A stretch of 20,329 nt of DNA from a virus, in the IMG/VR virus record IMGVR_UViG_3300048033_001309, positions 1 through 20,329 of that record; one strand, 5' to 3'. This document shows, in pieces, positions 1 through 8,147 of the stretch. How positions within the stretch are numbered: the first letter of the stretch is position 1; each line of letters starts with the position of its first letter. The position numbers and the translations under genes were made by a program. The notes beneath the pieces are model-generated. The model was not told the DNA's origin, did no database searches, and saw only the letters and a list, made by a program, of their open reading frames with translations.

Positions 1-606
1 GCATTAGACACACTTAATGAGCTTGCAGCGGCACTTGGCGACGATGCTAACTTCAGCACAACAGTAAATACTGCTTTAGGTAATAGAGTTCGCGTTGACA
101 CAGGCACTCAGGGTCTTACTGATCAAGAAAAGCTAAATGCTAGAACAAACATAGGTGCACCTGCTACATCTCACAACCACCAAGCTTCACATATTACGTC
201 CGGAAAATTAGATAGGGATAGATTGCCGGAAACTATTTCTGGTCTTGACATACTTACAGCTGATAAGCTAAAAGGTGAACTTGCAACGGTGACTCTAGAC
301 GCACAAGATGAAGTGCCGGTAGATCTTACTACCTATACAAATATTTATTGCGATATAGGTATCAATGGATGGCGTGGTTTTGATTTAACAATCGATGCAA
401 CATCTGTAGGGAACAGCGGTACTATCGTATTACACAACGGCGCGCAAATGACAGTTGGCGCTCCTTTCAATATGCCTTCAGAATTTAAAACACCAAATGG
501 CGATTCTATTATTTGGGTAAGAGGTTCTGGAACAACAGCAATTTTATCGTACTTCGTAGTTTCTACTAGTGTTGTACTAATCAATTATATAGGTAATTAT
601 CAGTAA
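1..606 (+). CDS. Tail fibre protein, C-terminal part (5' end outside window)
   Basis: The reading frame is open from base 1 to the TAA at 604-606, so this is the last 201 residues of a longer protein; an internal TTG at 223 is not the start. The opening segment (ALDTLNELAAALGDDANF, then VNTALGNRV and LNARTNIGA) is the linker typical of phage tail fibres, including many T7-type and prophage fibres. A His-containing SHNHQASHITSGKLDRDRLP segment follows, also common in fibre shafts. The last ~110 residues are rich in beta-type sequence and probably form the distal domain. The role is inferred as host attachment at the virion tail. The stop overlaps the ATG of the next gene (TAATG), so the Thr-rich proteins downstream are probably co-translated and may belong to the same fibre apparatus. 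The family is fairly sure; the exact fibre is not. Confidence 0.75.
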   Translation, partial: ALDTLNELAAALGDDANFSTTVNTALGNRVRVDTGTQGLTDQEKLNARTNIGAPATSHNHQASHITSGKLDRDRLPETISGLDILTADKLKGELATVTLDAQDEVPVDLTTYTNIYCDIGINGWRGFDLTIDATSVGNSGTIVLHNGAQMTVGAPFNMPSEFKTPNGDSIIWVRGSGTTAILSYFVVSTSVVLINYIGNYQ

Positions 607-1979
607 TGAATTTTGGATTTAGATCTATTTATAAGTGGAACACGACTAGATCGACTTCAAAGTCTACATCTACGAGTAATAACACTATAACTACTTTTAC
701 CACGACGTTTAACACGACGAGTACGTTTGGTACATCTAGTACTTTTAATACTTCTCATAGTACGACGACTACGTTTGATACTACTACAACTTGGGAGACA
801 AGTATAGAAACGTCAAGAAGCACAACTACGACATGGGCAACATCATCAAGCTTTAATACAACAACAACGTATAATACTACTAGGTCTACAGAAACATCTA
901 GATCTACAAGTCATTCTACGCTCACTACGTATGAGACGTCTCATAGCACCTCTCAAAGCACGACTACAGTTTTTGAAACTCAACATATAACTGATACTAC
1001 CGTATTAAATCCTTATTATGTAAATACAACAACTACTTATAATTCGTATTTTAATACAATTACACAGGTGCTAACAAATAGGGCGACAAGTAGATCAACT
1101 GTTACAACATTTTCAACTAGTCATAGTACATCACACAGTACAACGACTACGTTTGAAACATCGCATAGTACCACGACAACGTACAACACCACTAAAAGTA
1201 CGACCACTACTTATAATACAACTCAAAGTACTACAACGGTATATGCAACATCGCATAGTACCACAACTACTTTCGCGACAAGTCATAGTACATCGAGAAG
1301 CACGACTACCACTTATAATACAACTCGCTCAACGACAACTACTTATTTTACTAGTCGTTCAACAACAACTACGTTTTCTACGTCGCATTCAACGACTACG
1401 ACTTATAATACTACTTTTGAGACGTCCCGTACAACAAATTCTAGTTTTAATACTACGCGCACAACAACAACTACGTTTAATACTACTAGATCTACTACTA
1501 CTACGTTTGCTACTAGTAAAACTACTACCACTACTTATACAACAAGTAGAGGCACAAGTAGAACAACAACAACCACATATAATACAACAAGATCGACCAC
1601 TACTACATTTAATACTAGTAAAGGTACAACTACTACATGGGCAACGAGTAAAAGTACCACGACATCTTGGACTACTTATTGGAATACTAGTAGAAACACA
1701 ACTACATATTTCAACACAAGTAGATCTACCACGACTACATTTGCAACATCAAGAGCGACAACAACTTCTTGGACAACATACTGGAATACTAGCAGGTCTA
1801 CAACTACGACTTTTGCAACAAGTAAAAGTACAACAACTACATATAACACAAGTAGATCAACATCTTATGTAACAACATTTGCTACTTCTGGTACGCAGTC
1901 AACTTCATGGACAACAAGTTGGTTAACATATTGGACAACCGCATGGGAAACATCAGGCGGAGGATTAGGTATGAGATAA
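606..1979 (+). CDS. Thr/Ser-rich decapeptide-repeat protein A (putative fibre or virion surface protein)
   Basis: This is a 457-residue protein of which roughly half is Thr. From residue ~163 it is a nearly unbroken array of a 10-residue unit: basic or polar residue (R/K/H/Q), S/T/G/A, T-T-T-T, aromatic (F/Y/W), N/A/E, T, S/T. Typical units are RSTTTTYNTT and HSTTTTFATS. Four-residue inserts ending in TS (HSTS, RGTS, FETS) and a SWTTYWNTS variant break the period. Residues ~125-160 form a non-repeat interruption containing TQVLT at 153-157. The C-terminus is Trp-rich and ends in a Gly-rich tail. It has no Cys, few acidic residues and almost no Pro. No signal peptide or membrane segment is visible. 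Start ATG 606 overlaps the previous stop. Position after a tail-fibre gene suggests a fibre or decoration protein. I do not recognise the family; function is inferred from context only. Confidence 0.8.
   Translation: MNFGFRSIYKWNTTRSTSKSTSTSNNTITTFTTTFNTTSTFGTSSTFNTSHSTTTTFDTTTTWETSIETSRSTTTTWATSSSFNTTTTYNTTRSTETSRSTSHSTLTTYETSHSTSQSTTTVFETQHITDTTVLNPYYVNTTTTYNSYFNTITQVLTNRATSRSTVTTFSTSHSTSHSTTTTFETSHSTTTTYNTTKSTTTTYNTTQSTTTVYATSHSTTTTFATSHSTSRSTTTTYNTTRSTTTTYFTSRSTTTTFSTSHSTTTTYNTTFETSRTTNSSFNTTRTTTTTFNTTRSTTTTFATSKTTTTTYTTSRGTSRTTTTTYNTTRSTTTTFNTSKGTTTTWATSKSTTTSWTTYWNTSRNTTTYFNTSRSTTTTFATSRATTTSWTTYWNTSRSTTTTFATSKSTTTTYNTSRSTSYVTTFATSGTQSTSWTTSWLTYWTTAWETSGGGLGMR
1092..1889 (+). repeat. 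Decapeptide-coding repeat array, 30-nt period (gene A)
   Basis: The array encodes more than 20 tandem copies of a 10-residue unit, with occasional 12-nt inserts that keep the frame. The protein unit is well kept but the DNA is not: all four Thr codons are mixed freely, so neighbouring units differ at many third positions. It is therefore a protein repeat, not a recent DNA satellite or a CRISPR array. Confidence 0.8.
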
Positions 1980-1988
1980 TTTTATACA

Positions 1989-3323
1989 ATGGGATTAACA
2001 AGTAGATTAACATCAAGAAATACGTCGGTCACCACATCTAGGAATACGGCGATCAATAGAAATACAACGAGAACGACTTCGCGTACCACGACATTTGCTA
2101 CGTCGAAGAGTACCACGACTACATATAATACTACACGAGCTACGACTACAACTTGGCAAACAAGTAGAGGTACATCACGTTCTACTACGACTACATGGAA
2201 TACTACACGAGCTACGACCACTACTTTTGCTACTTCGAGGAGTACAGTCACAACATGGACGACTAGCCGGGGTACCAGTAGATCTACTACTACCACTTTT
2301 AATACAACAAGGTTAACAACAACTACGTTTAATACCACTCGTTCTACTATAACGACTTTTGCTACGTCGAAGAGTACAACAACAAGTTGGACTACATACT
2401 TTAATACGTCTAGGTCTACCACGACCACTTACAATACTACAAGAACCACAACAACTACCTATGCTACTTCTAAATCAACTGTAACGACGTATTTGACTAG
2501 CGTAAATACATTGACGAGATTTAATACAAGTAAGAGTACAACTCGATCAACAACAACAACGTATAATACATCTAAAAGTACCACTACTGGTTTTACAACG
2601 AGTCATAGTACTACTACGACTTTTGCAACTAGCCATAGTACGACTACAACGTTTACGACTACGTATAATACAACACGTAGTACGACTACGACCTATAATA
2701 CTAGTAAAAGTACGACTACGACATTTGCAACAAGTCATTCTACAACTACGACTTTTGCGACTAGTCATTCTACAGTAACAACATATAATACGACGCAAAG
2801 TACTGTTACAACTTACAATACTTCGTATGATACAACATCTAGTTATACTACTAACTGGACAACATATTGGTTTACTGAGAGATCAACAGCTACTTTTATA
2901 CAAACTAGTAGAACCACGCAAACCACGTTGTATACTAATGTACCGACTCAAGTATTAACTTATTACAATACTTCTAAGTCTACGACTACAACATGGACAA
3001 CATACTATAATACTAGTCACAATACAACCACAACATATACGACTTTATTTAATACAACAACGACATTTAGTACATCTCATAGTACATCAACGTCTACAAC
3101 ATTTAATACAAGTCAGAGCACAACGACTACTTGGATAAGCTATTTCAATACATCAAGCACATTTAGCACAAGTAGAGCGACAACAACAACATATCAAACA
3201 ACAACAGTTTTTAATACCACAACGACATTTAGTACGTCAACAACAACGTCTTCTTCGTTTGGTACAACCTTTAATACAACAACAACTTTTAATACAACTG
3301 TTGTCACTAGCTTTTACGAATAA
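1989..3323 (+). CDS. Thr/Ser-rich decapeptide-repeat protein B (paralogue of protein A)
   Basis: This 444-residue protein has the same composition and the same 10-residue unit as the gene before it (KSTTTTYNTT, RSTTTTFNTT, HSTTTTFATS), the same four-residue inserts (RGTS) and the same SWTTY-FNTS variant. It opens with shorter SR/NT-rich repeats, carries the main array over residues ~32-279, and then has an irregular aromatic-rich part with TQVLT at 320-324, a motif shared with the neighbour's interruption. It ends in FNTT and TTFS blocks and a final SFYE. No Cys is present and there is only one obvious Pro. ATG 1989 lies 9 bases after the upstream stop with no Shine-Dalgarno. The two genes look like an old tandem duplication with later rearrangement. 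A structural or adhesive virion role is inferred; the family is not recognised. Confidence 0.8.
   Translation: MGLTSRLTSRNTSVTTSRNTAINRNTTRTTSRTTTFATSKSTTTTYNTTRATTTTWQTSRGTSRSTTTTWNTTRATTTTFATSRSTVTTWTTSRGTSRSTTTTFNTTRLTTTTFNTTRSTITTFATSKSTTTSWTTYFNTSRSTTTTYNTTRTTTTTYATSKSTVTTYLTSVNTLTRFNTSKSTTRSTTTTYNTSKSTTTGFTTSHSTTTTFATSHSTTTTFTTTYNTTRSTTTTYNTSKSTTTTFATSHSTTTTFATSHSTVTTYNTTQSTVTTYNTSYDTTSSYTTNWTTYWFTERSTATFIQTSRTTQTTLYTNVPTQVLTYYNTSKSTTTTWTTYYNTSHNTTTTYTTLFNTTTTFSTSHSTSTSTTFNTSQSTTTTWISYFNTSSTFSTSRATTTTYQTTTVFNTTTTFSTSTTTSSSFGTTFNTTTTFNTTVVTSFYE
2082..2825 (+). repeat. Decapeptide-coding repeat array, 30-nt period (gene B)
   Basis: This is the second array of the same 10-residue unit, with Thr tetrads followed by an aromatic residue and N-T-S/T or A-T-S. 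As in the first array, codons are scrambled between copies while the amino-acid pattern is kept. In-frame four-residue inserts recur. Confidence 0.75.
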
Positions 3324-3361: not shown

Positions 3362-4252
3362 ATGGAAATGTTCAACGAAGTTGCTCTAAAAGAAAGATTA
3401 GGGCCACTTAAAAAACAAAGAAACCTTTGGAATCTTGAAGGTTTAGAACGGCATCTTTTGATGCATATTAAAAAGTACGGTGTAGAAACTAGCTACGATG
3501 TTTTAGCTGGTGAAATGCCATATTTTAAAACAATGGGATACACAGAGTATGCCACTAACTTTTATATGCAACCATTGAATCTTAAAATACGTGAAGATTC
3601 AATTCAAGATGCTTACGATCATAATGTAGAAGACGTAAAAGACTTTGCTGGTTATTTACGCAAGAACATTGAAGAAGGCCAAGCTAATAAATATAAAGAC
3701 CGTAAGATTGATACAGAGATCGATCCTGAAATGAACTTAGTTATATTACCTGGTTCAAATAAGCTTCATGAGCATGTTTGTAAAAACAAGCTTGACTATA
3801 TTAAAAAGAAGCACGGTAAATATGTTTTATTCAAGCCTCACCCGATTACTACTCATGCTGTTATTGGTGAATTAAAAGATATGTATGGTGAGCATCAAAT
3901 TCTTGATCGCAACCTAGATATGTATTACTACATGCAACATGCAGATAAGGTGTATAGCACGCATTTAAGTGAAAGTGCATTATACGCTTTAGTATTAGAG
4001 AAAGAGATTGAGCCAATCGACGTATTGCACATGCAGCATCGCGGTTCCTTCTATCCTATTAATCAACATCTATTTGATAGACCTGGACAAGACGGTATAG
4101 ACTGGGTGAATCGTGTATTCTCAAGTCATAAGTCTGGTATCATTAATCCTGCTGTAGATGCAAATTGGAGAGAAAAGATTGATCAGTATCTTGAATATAT
4201 CATGGCAAAACGTAAGTTTTACAAAAACTTCTACATAGACCATAAACCCTAA
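3362..4252 (+). CDS. Glycosyltransferase-like protein with KPHP motif (GT-B type, capsule/sialyl-type)
   Basis: This 296-residue protein has a C-terminal half resembling GT-B enzymes that use CMP- or CDP-activated donors (capsule polysaccharide, polysialyl- or CDP-glycerol-type transferases). LVILPGSN (126-133) looks like the strand opening the second Rossmann domain. YVLFKPHP (154-161) carries the conserved KPHP, and ADKVYSTHLSESALYAL (194-210) fits the downstream donor-binding S/T-S-E segment of these families. The N-terminal half (residues 1-120) is helical and not recognised. No signal peptide or membrane segment is seen, so it should be cytoplasmic. It lies directly downstream of two Thr/Ser/Asn-rich proteins, which makes them candidate acceptors, but it could equally modify another phage component or host surface sugar. 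An ATG at 3368 is an alternative start. Donor and acceptor cannot be read from the sequence. Confidence 0.5.
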   Translation: MEMFNEVALKERLGPLKKQRNLWNLEGLERHLLMHIKKYGVETSYDVLAGEMPYFKTMGYTEYATNFYMQPLNLKIREDSIQDAYDHNVEDVKDFAGYLRKNIEEGQANKYKDRKIDTEIDPEMNLVILPGSNKLHEHVCKNKLDYIKKKHGKYVLFKPHPITTHAVIGELKDMYGEHQILDRNLDMYYYMQHADKVYSTHLSESALYALVLEKEIEPIDVLHMQHRGSFYPINQHLFDRPGQDGIDWVNRVFSSHKSGIINPAVDANWREKIDQYLEYIMAKRKFYKNFYIDHKP

Positions 4253-4575: not shown

Positions 4576-6147
4576 ATGGAATACAATCAGCCAAGTGCAA
4601 TTGTTAAGGATTTGTCTTTTGGGGCAGAAGCCAGAAACAAAGTATTTGATGGTGTAACCCAACTAGCAGAAGCAGTAAAGTCTACATTAGGCGCTTCTGG
4701 TAAGTGTGTAATTTACGAAGACGCAACAGGCAGACCGGTTATCACAAAAGACGGTGTAACCGTAGCAGAATCCGTAATTTTATTAGACCCGGTTGAAAAC
4801 CTCGGCGCGACACTTATTAAAGAAGCGGCTAAGAATACAGTGAAAGAAGCAGGAGACGGTACGACAACATCTACCGTCCTTGCTTATTCATTGCTTAAAG
4901 AAGCAAACGAAGCAATCGAAAATGGATTAAACGTTCGTGATATTAAGACCGCTTATGAAAAAGGTTTAAGGTTAACCACAGATTACTTAAATAAAAATAA
5001 AATTGAAGTTGATGGAGACATGTTGCATTCTGTTGCAGCAATTTCTACAAACAACGATTTAGAGCTTGGTAAGATTATTGGCCAAGCATACGAAACTGTA
5101 GGTAAGCACGGCATCGTTTTAATGGAAGAGTCTGATACTTCAGATACATATTTTGATGTAGTTGATGGTGTTCAGTTTTCTTCAGGTTTAAAAACACAAG
5201 TGTTAACTACGGACGATGATAAGAGTAAAAGCGAATTAGAAAATCCTTATGTTCTTATTGTAGCAAATGAAATACCAAGTATTAGAAATATACAAAGTGT
5301 ATTAGAGTTTGTTATAAAACAAAATCGACCAATTCTTATTATTGGACATTTAGCACAGCAACCTATGAGCGCTTTGCTAATGAATAAAACAAAGGGTAAT
5401 GTCAAAGTTAATATTATTGATCTACCTGGTTTTGGTCCAACAAAAAGAGAAACTATCGAAGATTTAGCTGCTTTAACCGGTGCTAAGGTTATTGACGAGC
5501 AATTAGGGGACGATTTAAGCCTCATAGAGCCGTCTATGCTTGGCGTAGCGGTCAAAAGCGTAACAGATAGTAAAAACACTGTCTTAACTATAGAAAGCGT
5601 CCCAAAACCCGCGAAACAACGTATTGTATCTGTAGAGAAAAAAATAGCCGACGAGCAAAATCCTTTTGTAAAGAAAAAGCTTGAGCAAAGGCTAGCAATG
5701 TTGTCGGGTTCAGTTGGGATTATTAAAGTTGGCGCAAACAGTCAAGTTGAATTAAAAGAAAAGAAAGATCGTGTTGAAGATGCGATCTATGCAGTAAAAG
5801 CTGCGTTACAAGAAGGTATTGTGCCTGGCGGAGGTGTAGCTTTAATGAATGCCGCCCAAAAACAAAAATTACAATCTAACGAGGATATATTATTTCAAAA
5901 TGCAATAACAGCACCGTTTAATACTATCCTACAAAATGCGGGCTTAGATGTGCCCGAAGATTTTAATTATAGAAAGGGTTGGGGTATTAATGCAATGAAC
6001 GGAAAACCGGTAAATATGATTAAGGTTGGTATTATAGATCCTGTTCTCGTTACTAAAACAGCATTGAAAAATGCAGTTAGTGTCGTGAATACGATTATAT
6101 CAGCAGATGCAATAATTTCTAATAAAAGAATAGATGCAGGCAATTAA
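4576..6147 (+). CDS. groEL: Phage GroEL-like chaperonin (Cpn60, group I)
   Basis: This 523-residue group I chaperonin aligns along its whole length with bacterial GroEL (~547). It uses ATP to fold proteins inside a ring cavity. ATP-site residues are kept: KDG at 58-60, AGDGTTT at 92-98 (D94 equals E. coli D87), RVED at 399-402 (D402 equals catalytic D398), GGG at 418-420 and IIDP at 486-489. The apical domain spans about 195-380 and its substrate-groove positions stay mostly hydrophobic. The Gly/Met-rich C-terminal tail is missing. By eye-alignment, R197 and E386 (inter-subunit pair) are Ser203 and Gln390, and ring-contact residues K105 and R452 are Glu112 and Asn449. It overlaps the co-chaperonin gene by 14 bases, with groEL first, the reverse of the usual groES-groEL order. 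Structural proteins of this phage are the likely clients. The identification is very secure. Confidence 0.97.
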   Translation: MEYNQPSAIVKDLSFGAEARNKVFDGVTQLAEAVKSTLGASGKCVIYEDATGRPVITKDGVTVAESVILLDPVENLGATLIKEAAKNTVKEAGDGTTTSTVLAYSLLKEANEAIENGLNVRDIKTAYEKGLRLTTDYLNKNKIEVDGDMLHSVAAISTNNDLELGKIIGQAYETVGKHGIVLMEESDTSDTYFDVVDGVQFSSGLKTQVLTTDDDKSKSELENPYVLIVANEIPSIRNIQSVLEFVIKQNRPILIIGHLAQQPMSALLMNKTKGNVKVNIIDLPGFGPTKRETIEDLAALTGAKVIDEQLGDDLSLIEPSMLGVAVKSVTDSKNTVLTIESVPKPAKQRIVSVEKKIADEQNPFVKKKLEQRLAMLSGSVGIIKVGANSQVELKEKKDRVEDAIYAVKAALQEGIVPGGGVALMNAAQKQKLQSNEDILFQNAITAPFNTILQNAGLDVPEDFNYRKGWGINAMNGKPVNMIKVGIIDPVLVTKTALKNAVSVVNTIISADAIISNKRIDAGN

Positions 6148-6391
6148 TCATTATATCATTATCGAACAGTTAAAAGAAGAGCCTAAAAAAGTAAATGGTT
6201 TACTATTAACTGATAACGTTACAAACGATGTAAGATACCTTAAAGGTAAAGTCATTAGTGTTGGTAATAGAACCGAAGTCGTGAAAGCTGACGATGTAAT
6301 CTATTACGACAGACACGCCGGGCATGGAATCGAATGGCAGGGTAAGCTTTATTACGTTATTAAACAACAAGATATCGTAATTATAGAATGA
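6134..6391 (+). CDS. groES: GroES-like co-chaperonin (Cpn10), short form
   Basis: This 85-residue protein (E. coli GroES has 97) would cap the chaperonin ring. The beta-barrel opens with NHYIIIEQLKEEP. The mobile loop follows (residues ~14-35), with LLL at 23-25 in place of the IVL that docks on GroEL. KGKVISVGN (37-45) and the closing IEWQGKLYYVIKQQDIVII complete the fold. Between VGN and the next strand about 9 residues are missing compared with E. coli, which is the segment that forms the roof hairpin of the dome. T4 gp31 also lacks this roof. The start ATG lies inside the last codons of groEL, and the TGA overlaps the next ATG (ATGA). It is the natural partner of the upstream chaperonin. 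Confidence 0.88.
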   Translation: MQAINHYIIIEQLKEEPKKVNGLLLTDNVTNDVRYLKGKVISVGNRTEVVKADDVIYYDRHAGHGIEWQGKLYYVIKQQDIVIIE

Positions 6392-7175: not shown

Positions 7176-7361
7176 ATGAAATTAATTTTATTAGTAGCAG
7201 TACTAGTAGCTGCAGTAGCTGCCGCTTGGGTAGGAGCAGTTAAATTAAATAAAAAAGGACTTCTTAAGGATGAAAACAATAATAACGTACCAGATATTGT
7301 TGATGACAAAATTGAAGAAGTAAAACAAAAAGTAAAAAAAGCTGTAAAAAATAAAAAGTAA
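7176..7361 (+). CDS. Small membrane-anchored protein with EF-hand-like loop
   Basis: This 61-residue protein has an N-terminal hydrophobic helix (residues ~3-23, LILLVAVLVAAVAAAWVGAV) that should anchor it in a membrane. Residues 32-43 (DENNNNVPDIVD) place Asp/Asn at positions 1, 3, 5, 9 and 12 of a 12-residue calcium-type loop, like EF-hand or thrombospondin type 3 loops. The C-terminal ~17 residues are a Lys-rich helix. The same plan (one membrane helix, then a D/N-rich loop) occurs in small proteins of other phages. It lies between the Cys-rich microprotein and a basic protein, with its TAA overlapping the next ATG. A lysis or membrane role is possible but unproven. Confidence 0.65.
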   Translation: MKLILLVAVLVAAVAAAWVGAVKLNKKGLLKDENNNNVPDIVDDKIEEVKQKVKKAVKNKK

Positions 7362-7648
7362 TGGCAACCAAAAACGCACCATCAAGAAAAAAATCTAAAG
7401 GCTATTACGCCGAAGTTAAAAAAGGTGGTGGTACTGGTTCTAAGGCTGGCGGCGGTATGACTAAAAAAGGTGTCGCTAAATACAGAAAGGATAACCCTGG
7501 AAGTAAGCTTAAAACCGCAGTTACCACTCCGCCATCAAAACTCAAGAAAGGAAGCAAAGCCTGGAAGAGACGTAAATCATTTTGTGCAAGATCTAAAAGC
7601 TGGACTTCAGAAAGAGGTAAAGCAGCAAGAAGAAAATGGAACTGTTAA
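7361..7648 (+). CDS. Lys/Arg-rich small phage protein (MTKKGVAKYR-type)
   Basis: This 95-residue, strongly basic protein has a Gly/Lys-rich N-terminal half (YYAEVKKGGGTGSKAGGG) and a conserved-looking half with MTKKGVAKYRKDNPGSKLKT, then KKGSKAWKRRKSFCARSKSW and a final RRKWNC. I recall this pattern from many uncultured marine phages and cyanophages, where it is listed as hypothetical. Two Cys (in SFCAR and the terminal residue) are kept with the basic clusters. The charge suggests binding to nucleic acid, either packaged DNA or RNA. ATG 7361 overlaps the preceding TAA (TAATG). Function is not assigned. Confidence 0.7.
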   Translation: MATKNAPSRKKSKGYYAEVKKGGGTGSKAGGGMTKKGVAKYRKDNPGSKLKTAVTTPPSKLKKGSKAWKRRKSFCARSKSWTSERGKAARRKWNC

Positions 7649-7757: not shown

Positions 7758-7894
7758 TGCCAAAAGACGCTTGTTACAATAAAGTAAAGAAAAAATATAG
7801 GGTGTTTCCATCAGCTTATGCTTCGGGAGCTATTGCTAAATGCCGTAAAGTAGGCGCAAAGAATTGGGGCAATGGCCGTAAGAAAAAGCGCTAA
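7757..7894 (+). CDS. 45-residue basic Cys-containing microprotein (FPSAYASGAI motif)
   Basis: A 45-codon frame from ATG 7757 (TAATG with the previous stop) to TAA 7892-7894. The sequence is highly patterned: DACYNKVKKKYRVFPSAYAS, then GAIAKCRKVGAKNWG and a Lys/Arg tail. The CYxKVKxxYxVFPSAYASG...KCRKVGxxNWG pattern is one I recognise from many phages and also from some large DNA viruses of eukaryotes, so this is a real conserved protein despite its size. Two Cys residues bracket the motif. It overlaps the next gene by 23 bases. The role is unknown; its recurrence in structural regions suggests a virion or nucleic-acid partner. Confidence 0.7.
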   Translation: MPKDACYNKVKKKYRVFPSAYASGAIAKCRKVGAKNWGNGRKKKR

Positions 7895-8147
7895 GGGAGC
7901 ATCTCTACGCCGTTGGTTTAAAGAAGAATGGACTGATGTTCGTACTGGTAAGCCATGCGGTAGAAGTAAAGGTGAAAAACGTGGTGTGCCATATTGCAGA
8001 CCTAAAAAACGTGTTTCGTCTAAAACACCTAAAACAGCGTCTGAAATGTCTGCGGCTGAAAAGCGTAAAAAGATTGCAGAAAAGAAACGACTTGGGCAAC
8101 CGGCAGGTAAGCCACGTCGTGTAAAAAACACAAAACGTAGAAAATAA
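7872..8147 (+). CDS. Arg/Lys-rich small phage protein (SLRRWFKEEW motif)
   Basis: This 91-residue, very basic protein begins with AKGASLRRWFKEEWTDVRTG, continues KPCGRSKGEKRGVPYCRPKK and then RVSSKTPKTASEMSAAEKRK, and ends in a Lys/Arg tail. The order W-F-K-E-E-W, PCGR, YCRP, KTPKTASEM matches a protein type I recall from phages and large eukaryotic viruses, usually next to the FPSAYASG protein as here. Two Cys (PCGR, YCRP) could form a metal site or disulfide. It overlaps its upstream neighbour by 23 bases and the holin by one base pair of codons (TAATG). Function is unknown; charge suggests nucleic-acid contact. Confidence 0.72.
   Translation: MAVRKSAKGASLRRWFKEEWTDVRTGKPCGRSKGEKRGVPYCRPKKRVSSKTPKTASEMSAAEKRKKIAEKKRLGQPAGKPRRVKNTKRRK

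Follow-up and report, generated by a model that had tools for sequence, protein, structure and literature searches.

Results

Two adjacent threonine-rich proteins follow a tail-fibre-type gene

The DNA analysed here (the window) is a virus fragment of 20,329 bases from IMG/VR. Comparison with PHROG places its TerL, portal and capsid-region proteins in head-and-packaging families, and the TerL shows 64% identity to that of Caudoviricetes MW202828 and 46% to those of Flavobacterium elemo phages. The plus strand opens with the C-terminal part of a tail-fibre-type protein (positions 1–606; 201 aa are seen, the 5' part being cut by the window edge), which matches PHROG tail and tail-fibre families (best phrog_4757, E 1.3e-14; phrog_21962, tail protein, E 1.2e-9). 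Two Thr-rich repeat proteins follow on the same strand: protein A (606–1979, 457 aa), with the short aromatic N-terminus MNFGFRSIYKWNT and a Gly-rich C-terminus, and protein B (1989–3323, 444 aa), without a globular domain. Their ORFs share one frame and are separated by 9 bases. Directly 3' of B, also on the plus strand, lies the gene of a 296-aa protein named fam0 (3362–4252), a predicted GT-B CMP-ulosonate (Kdo/sialic-type) glycosyltransferase.

Farther along the window, positions 4576–6391 hold a phage GroEL (523 aa, PF00118) and, directly after it, an 85-aa GroES-like gene; the elemo relative L002 has such a pair in the opposite orientation. Two small Lys/Arg-rich proteins of similar composition (95 and 91 aa; 7361–7648 and 7872–8147) are possibly DNA-binding or virion-internal. 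No Thr-rich ORF was found in the stretches examined of the two closest annotated phages (L001 and L002), indicating that the cassette is exchangeable.

Protein A contains 200 Thr and 79 Ser residues and protein B 206 Thr and 67 Ser (61% Thr+Ser). Pairs of aromatic residues at a distance of ten positions numbered 24 in A and 31 in B, against means of 7.0 and 6.6 in 2000 shuffles (maxima 17 and 16), and the corresponding pairs of basic residues numbered 20 and 18, against means of 3.2 and 2.8 (maxima 10 and 9). When 48 decapeptides were aligned, all had Thr at positions 3 and 5 and 47 had it at position 9, whereas only 36% of the third codon positions were identical, which indicates that the repeat pattern is maintained at the protein level. 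Comparison with the close relative L025 gave dN/dS values of 0.17 for A and 0.19 for B, evidence of purifying selection, and the difference in length between the two A proteins corresponds to a deletion of exactly 40 residues. A and B are real, selected proteins that change in length by whole units; a DNA-level artefact was rejected because of these dN/dS values and the third-position divergence.

These results confirm the preliminary description of two adjacent decapeptide-repeat proteins of about 450 residues. The strict period proposed there (R/K/H-S-T-T-T-T-aromatic-N/A-T-S/T) holds in part: the decapeptide is present, but within a mixture of units 4, 6, 10 or 14 residues long, and what is invariant is T-x-big-x-T with even spacing. 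The absence of a named family was also borne out, since neither A nor B had a match in Pfam or PHROG. A tblastn search of A against phages gave no match either, low-complexity masking making this search uninformative, and nothing relevant on Thr-rich phage repeats was found in the literature search.

A common spacing rule among the relatives

Relatives were gathered with A and B as queries, and 91 non-redundant members were analysed for their repeat grammar. The Thr-rich relatives, which often occur as adjacent pairs, reach 3333 aa (3336 residues between stops). Loci L013, L016, L026 and L031 encode single-gene Thr-rich proteins of 2600–3333 residues, one array extending over approximately 10 kb. 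Throughout the 91 members, a big residue (F, Y, W, R, K or H) has Thr at position +2 in 92% of cases and at position −2 in 90%, and the spacing between big residues is even in 11,466 of 12,709 instances, as opposed to 6,303 of 13,953 in shuffled sequences. The rule of the family can be written as T-x-[aromatic/basic]-x-T, spaced nearly always by even numbers of residues. The net charge is positive in 97% of the proteins, and Cys (median 0) and Pro are nearly absent. A mucin-like protein would combine more than 40% Ser/Thr with richness in Pro; here Ser+Thr averages 58%, but the median Pro content is 0.34 per 100 residues. A match to rve_2 on the A protein of locus L008 lies inside the repeat and was dismissed as low-complexity noise.

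Even spacing together with mixed unit lengths fits two-faced extended strands, or simply a dense acceptor pattern. AlphaFold2 gave no usable model of A (pLDDT 26), a program that tends to over-predict confident solenoids for perfect repeats (PMC11795689). Neither the constant coil length nor the confident solenoid model of a fixed-coil beta-solenoid was found for A and B, and such a solenoid is disfavoured because the unit lengths vary freely (4, 6, 10, 14 and more). Hence, of the beta-structured fibre suggested initially, perhaps a solenoid or spiral, the strand-like alternation stands and the fixed coil does not.

The regular Thr columns had also suggested that the arrays are used directly, as ice-binding or carbohydrate-binding (adhesive) surfaces. 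No positive evidence was obtained for ice binding. Unlike many insect antifreeze repeats, the arrays have neither a fixed coil length nor Cys; moreover, the proteins also occur in phages of Vibrio and Caulobacter hosts, and a binding surface leaves the transferase gene linked to them unexplained. We consider this reading very improbable.

A place in the virion fibre, as proposed in the preliminary description, is backed by the upstream gene with its matches to tail-fibre PHROGs and by the fibre chaperone present in some relatives. The A protein of locus L007 ends in a Peptidase_S74 chaperone domain (25.7 bits against a cut-off of 22), and the Peptidase_S74 motif was recognized by pattern in 7 of 110 Thr-rich ORFs; the A protein of the window had no Pfam match to it. 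The short aromatic N-terminus is common to the A proteins and is a possible anchor. A and B are members of a large family without a name, whose proteins are probable tail-fibre stalks. Since virion proteomics for phage KVP40 or another relative carrying the genes was not found in the literature, we infer the virion location of the Thr-rich proteins.

The fam0 gene is linked to the Thr-rich genes

The fam0 protein corresponds to phrog_26179, whose function is not annotated in PHROG. A search with fam0 yielded 283 relatives, 80 of which were kept; together with those obtained earlier they represent 70 non-redundant loci. A Thr-rich ORF occupies the position immediately upstream of fam0 in 63 of the 70. 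Five of the remaining seven are cut at the contig edge, one (L057) has the Thr-rich sequence upstream in another frame, and one (L086) has a single intervening gene, so that no true counter-example was seen among the 70. A second fam0 subfamily (99 relatives), only about 20% identical to the fam0 of the window, has a Thr-rich ORF upstream that follows the same even-spacing rule in 35 of 38 non-redundant loci, the other three having less than 340 bp upstream. The pair was seen in cultured Vibrio phages and at more than 100 non-redundant loci of IMG/VR (in the two counted subfamilies, 98 loci have both genes). Linkage of fam0 to a Thr-rich gene is obligate, being observed in every locus with enough sequence.

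The pair occurs in unrelated phage backgrounds, with portal families phrog_6547 and phrog_33693 or a T4-type tail sheath (L064), although the sampled loci of each subfamily come mostly from related phages. It is also present in Straboviridae (KVP40 and QD01), the KVP40 cassette not adjoining tail genes, and in Caulobacter Autographiviridae (podophages). The Caulobacter phages have a less Thr-rich protein upstream, in which the rule is weak (Lullwater, BL198) or absent (Cr30). Two genes before fam0 (QD01_262 in QD01), KVP40 and QD01 carry KVP40.0254 (L039:8172-8765) and QD01_260 (L139:1917-2423), members of phrog_30374 in which a short version of the array with a four-residue period (TSRSTTRSTAY) is fused to an N-terminal PTTGAIS-type domain. 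Deeper scans with the Caulobacter and Vibrio fam0 proteins returned only the reference phages. A genome scan with fam0 gave a single match, on a contig of phage-like character from a Flavobacteriales MAG, and at that sensitivity fam0 therefore looks phage-restricted. A role for fam0 as a DNA-modifying transferase was rejected because of its strict linkage to the Thr-rich gene and not to replication genes.

The linkage bears on whether the two genes work together. The arrays might be structural beta-fibres that stay bare (extended strands, trimeric or intertwined, stabilised by Thr/aromatic ladders), with fam0 acting elsewhere, e.g. on the host surface, blocking superinfection, and the linkage reflecting operon history. 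Alternating strand faces would indeed yield even-only spacing, one relative has the Peptidase_S74 trimer chaperone, and phages are known to carry envelope-modifying transferases. However, a one-to-one association that recurs in unrelated genomes and in a subfamily only about 20% identical demands a functional tie, and the monomer has no fold in AlphaFold2. We judge the bare fibre unlikely.

Fold and conserved motifs of fam0

The AlphaFold2 model of fam0 had a pLDDT of 82.5 and a pTM of 0.83. Foldseek returned a weak but consistent list of GT-B proteins (PimA, SdgB, a polysialyltransferase, GtfA and TarM), with no PDB match at E <0.001. In VIA-align the top 15 matches were all Kdo transferases (Z 8.4–10.6, rmsd 3.8–5.8; Foldseek E above 0.001), among them KpsC (Z 10.6 over 224 residues), WbbB (9.1) and KrkA (8.5), and an epimerase and a polysialyltransferase came next. 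Profile-profile comparison of fam0 with bacterial Capsule_synth proteins gave a probability of 86.4% over the CMP-binding lobe, whereas none of 12 control families, nor a reversed control, exceeded 0.8%. In sequence searches nothing significant was found in the PDB, the window fam0 had no match to Pfam Capsule_synth (PF05159) above the curated cut-off, nor did the window genome, and the Pfam matches of other fam0 members, all weak and inconsistent, were discarded.

Sialyl- and Kdo transferases bind CMP through a (K/R)XHP motif (PMC12887879), which fam0 contains as KPHP at residues 158–161. K158, H160 and P161, together with D46, N133 and E204, are invariant in 72 of 72 fam0 sequences; further conserved motifs are G131/S132/N133 (GSN) and S203/E204 (SE). 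The Asp-nucleophile motif QXXXD, located where the C-terminal Rossmann domain begins and carried by the bacterial Capsule_synth proteins used for comparison, is absent from fam0, where by inspection the conserved GSN (131–133) stands instead. We assign fam0 with high confidence to the GT-B transferase-like proteins. It is predicted from model and motifs to work like a CMP-ulosonate transferase, and it is not placed in GT99, GT107 or GT140; since the Asp nucleophile of those families is missing, its mechanism and donor may differ from theirs.

The missing QXXXD would also be expected if fam0 were a chaperone-like pseudo-enzyme for the folding or assembly of the Thr-rich fibre, and tail-fibre assembly factors are often encoded beside the fibre. 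Yet KPHP is invariant and GSN and SE are conserved across the 72 sequences, and Kdo-8-phosphate synthase, CTP_transf_3 and other glycosyltransferase genes are linked to fam0. Such a role has, in our opinion, little chance of being correct, and a sugar transferase is the preferred reading.

Sugar genes and other modification genes near fam0

A Kdo-8-phosphate synthase gene (NCBIfam NF003543, E 3e-118) lies within three genes of fam0 in 7 of the 70 loci, while only 4 of 50,697 phage records contain a protein more than 40% identical to it. Kdo synthesis genes are found in a minority of fam0 loci. In L031 (8918-10309) and L012 (5854-7293) this phage synthase has an extra C-terminal region of about 200 residues.

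Locus L064 also has a CTP_transf_3 (CMP-sugar synthetase-family) protein fused to a methyltransferase, as well as a cupin and a 2OG-Fe(II) oxygenase, and L046, L049 and L051 have two further glycosyltransferases. In the second subfamily (L144–L223) a GT29-like gene is present in 79 of 80 loci and a GT8-like gene, labelled by inspection, in 75 of 80; the GT29-like gene of L014 (3481-4131) scored 34.4 bits against a cut-off of 23. These GT29-like sialyltransferase genes are neighbours of Thr-rich proteins, and examples from phages seem to have been little described.

About 20 loci have a methyltransferase-like gene between A and B (e.g. L058:1572-2669 and L093:4753-5304). Of 20 members, 12 gave a weak match to Methyltransf_25; some members have a weak intein/Hint-like C-terminus, and the product may modify the fibre too.

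Discussion

The preliminary description did not include the obligate link between the Thr-rich genes and one for a glycosyltransferase of CMP-sugar type, a link that makes the Thr arrays probable glycosylation acceptors. We propose that A and B are phage fibre stalks whose Thr arrays are O-glycosylated by fam0 as a dedicated CMP-ulosonate transferase. This proposal as a whole is likely to be right, and its central element, the Thr-rich protein as the acceptor of fam0, is somewhat more secure.

The donor would most likely be a CMP-activated ulosonic sugar (Kdo or a sialic/pseudaminic-type sugar), and the chance that it is Kdo itself falls slightly short of even. As a catalytically active enzyme, fam0 would transfer this sugar onto Thr residues of the T-x-[aromatic/basic]-x-T arrays in A and B. 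Gram-negative hosts produce CMP-Kdo for their own LPS, so that most phages would need the transferase only. In an attractive but unproven scheme, most phages would draw on this host pool and a few would add a supply of their own, some encoding Kdo-8-phosphate synthase, others a CMP-sugar synthetase-family protein or additional glycosyltransferases. The outcome would be a long virion fibre, presumably extended and bottlebrush-like, with rows of anionic sugars on Thr that the regularly placed basic residues would partly neutralise. A more speculative extension, which we hold only tentatively, is that many phages of Gram-negative bacteria make fibres of Thr-rich arrays whose Thr residues directly receive Kdo or a different ulosonic acid from a phage-specific transferase family, forming an anionic protein-glycan bottlebrush that mimics LPS or capsule.

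An ulosonic acid O-linked to fibre Thr would be a new virion modification. Self-glycosylation of the fibres, if true, would matter for the evolution of host range and for the stability and immune recognition of phages; it would also give the CMP-ulosonate transferases a phage branch and explain the Kdo synthesis genes of some phages. Two unnamed phage families, phrog_26179 and the unlisted Thr-rich repeat family, are joined here into one testable system, and the test is practical because the pair is carried by QD01, a cultured phage of the Vibrio natriegens laboratory strain Vmax. Such a fibre-glycosylation system was not found in Pfam, the PHROGs or the literature searched.

Among known enzymes, fam0 resembles the retaining Kdo transferases KpsC (GT107), WbbB (GT99) and KrkA (GT140) in its predicted GT-B fold, the (K/R)XHP motif and the similarity to the CMP-binding lobe of Capsule_synth. 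It differs from them in lacking the QXXXD nucleophile, in scoring below the Pfam cut-off and in being linked to a repeat protein and not to capsule or LPS genes. As regards the acceptor, tail fibres with Peptidase_S74 (the endosialidase chaperone) are comparable in that this domain ends relatives of A, whereas A and B of the window are without it and the stalk is a Thr-rich array. Glycosylated phage virions are known, e.g. mycobacteriophage capsids and tail tubes, in which phage transferases are likewise predicted to decorate virion proteins; the present case comprises a whole family of acceptor-like repeats with a transferase linked one-to-one. A parallel in gene arrangement is found in the serine-rich repeat adhesins (GtfA/GtfB) and the Sdr proteins (SdgA/SdgB), where a very long Ser/Thr stalk also adjoins its own GT-B transferase, and fam0 had both SdgB and GtfA among its weak Foldseek matches. 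Those systems use UDP-GlcNAc and are anchored to Gram-positive surfaces, whereas here the enzyme is of the CMP-sugar type and belongs to phages of Gram-negative hosts. Dedicated glycosylation of Ser/Thr repeats is already known in bacteria; what is new here is the setting and the type of enzyme.
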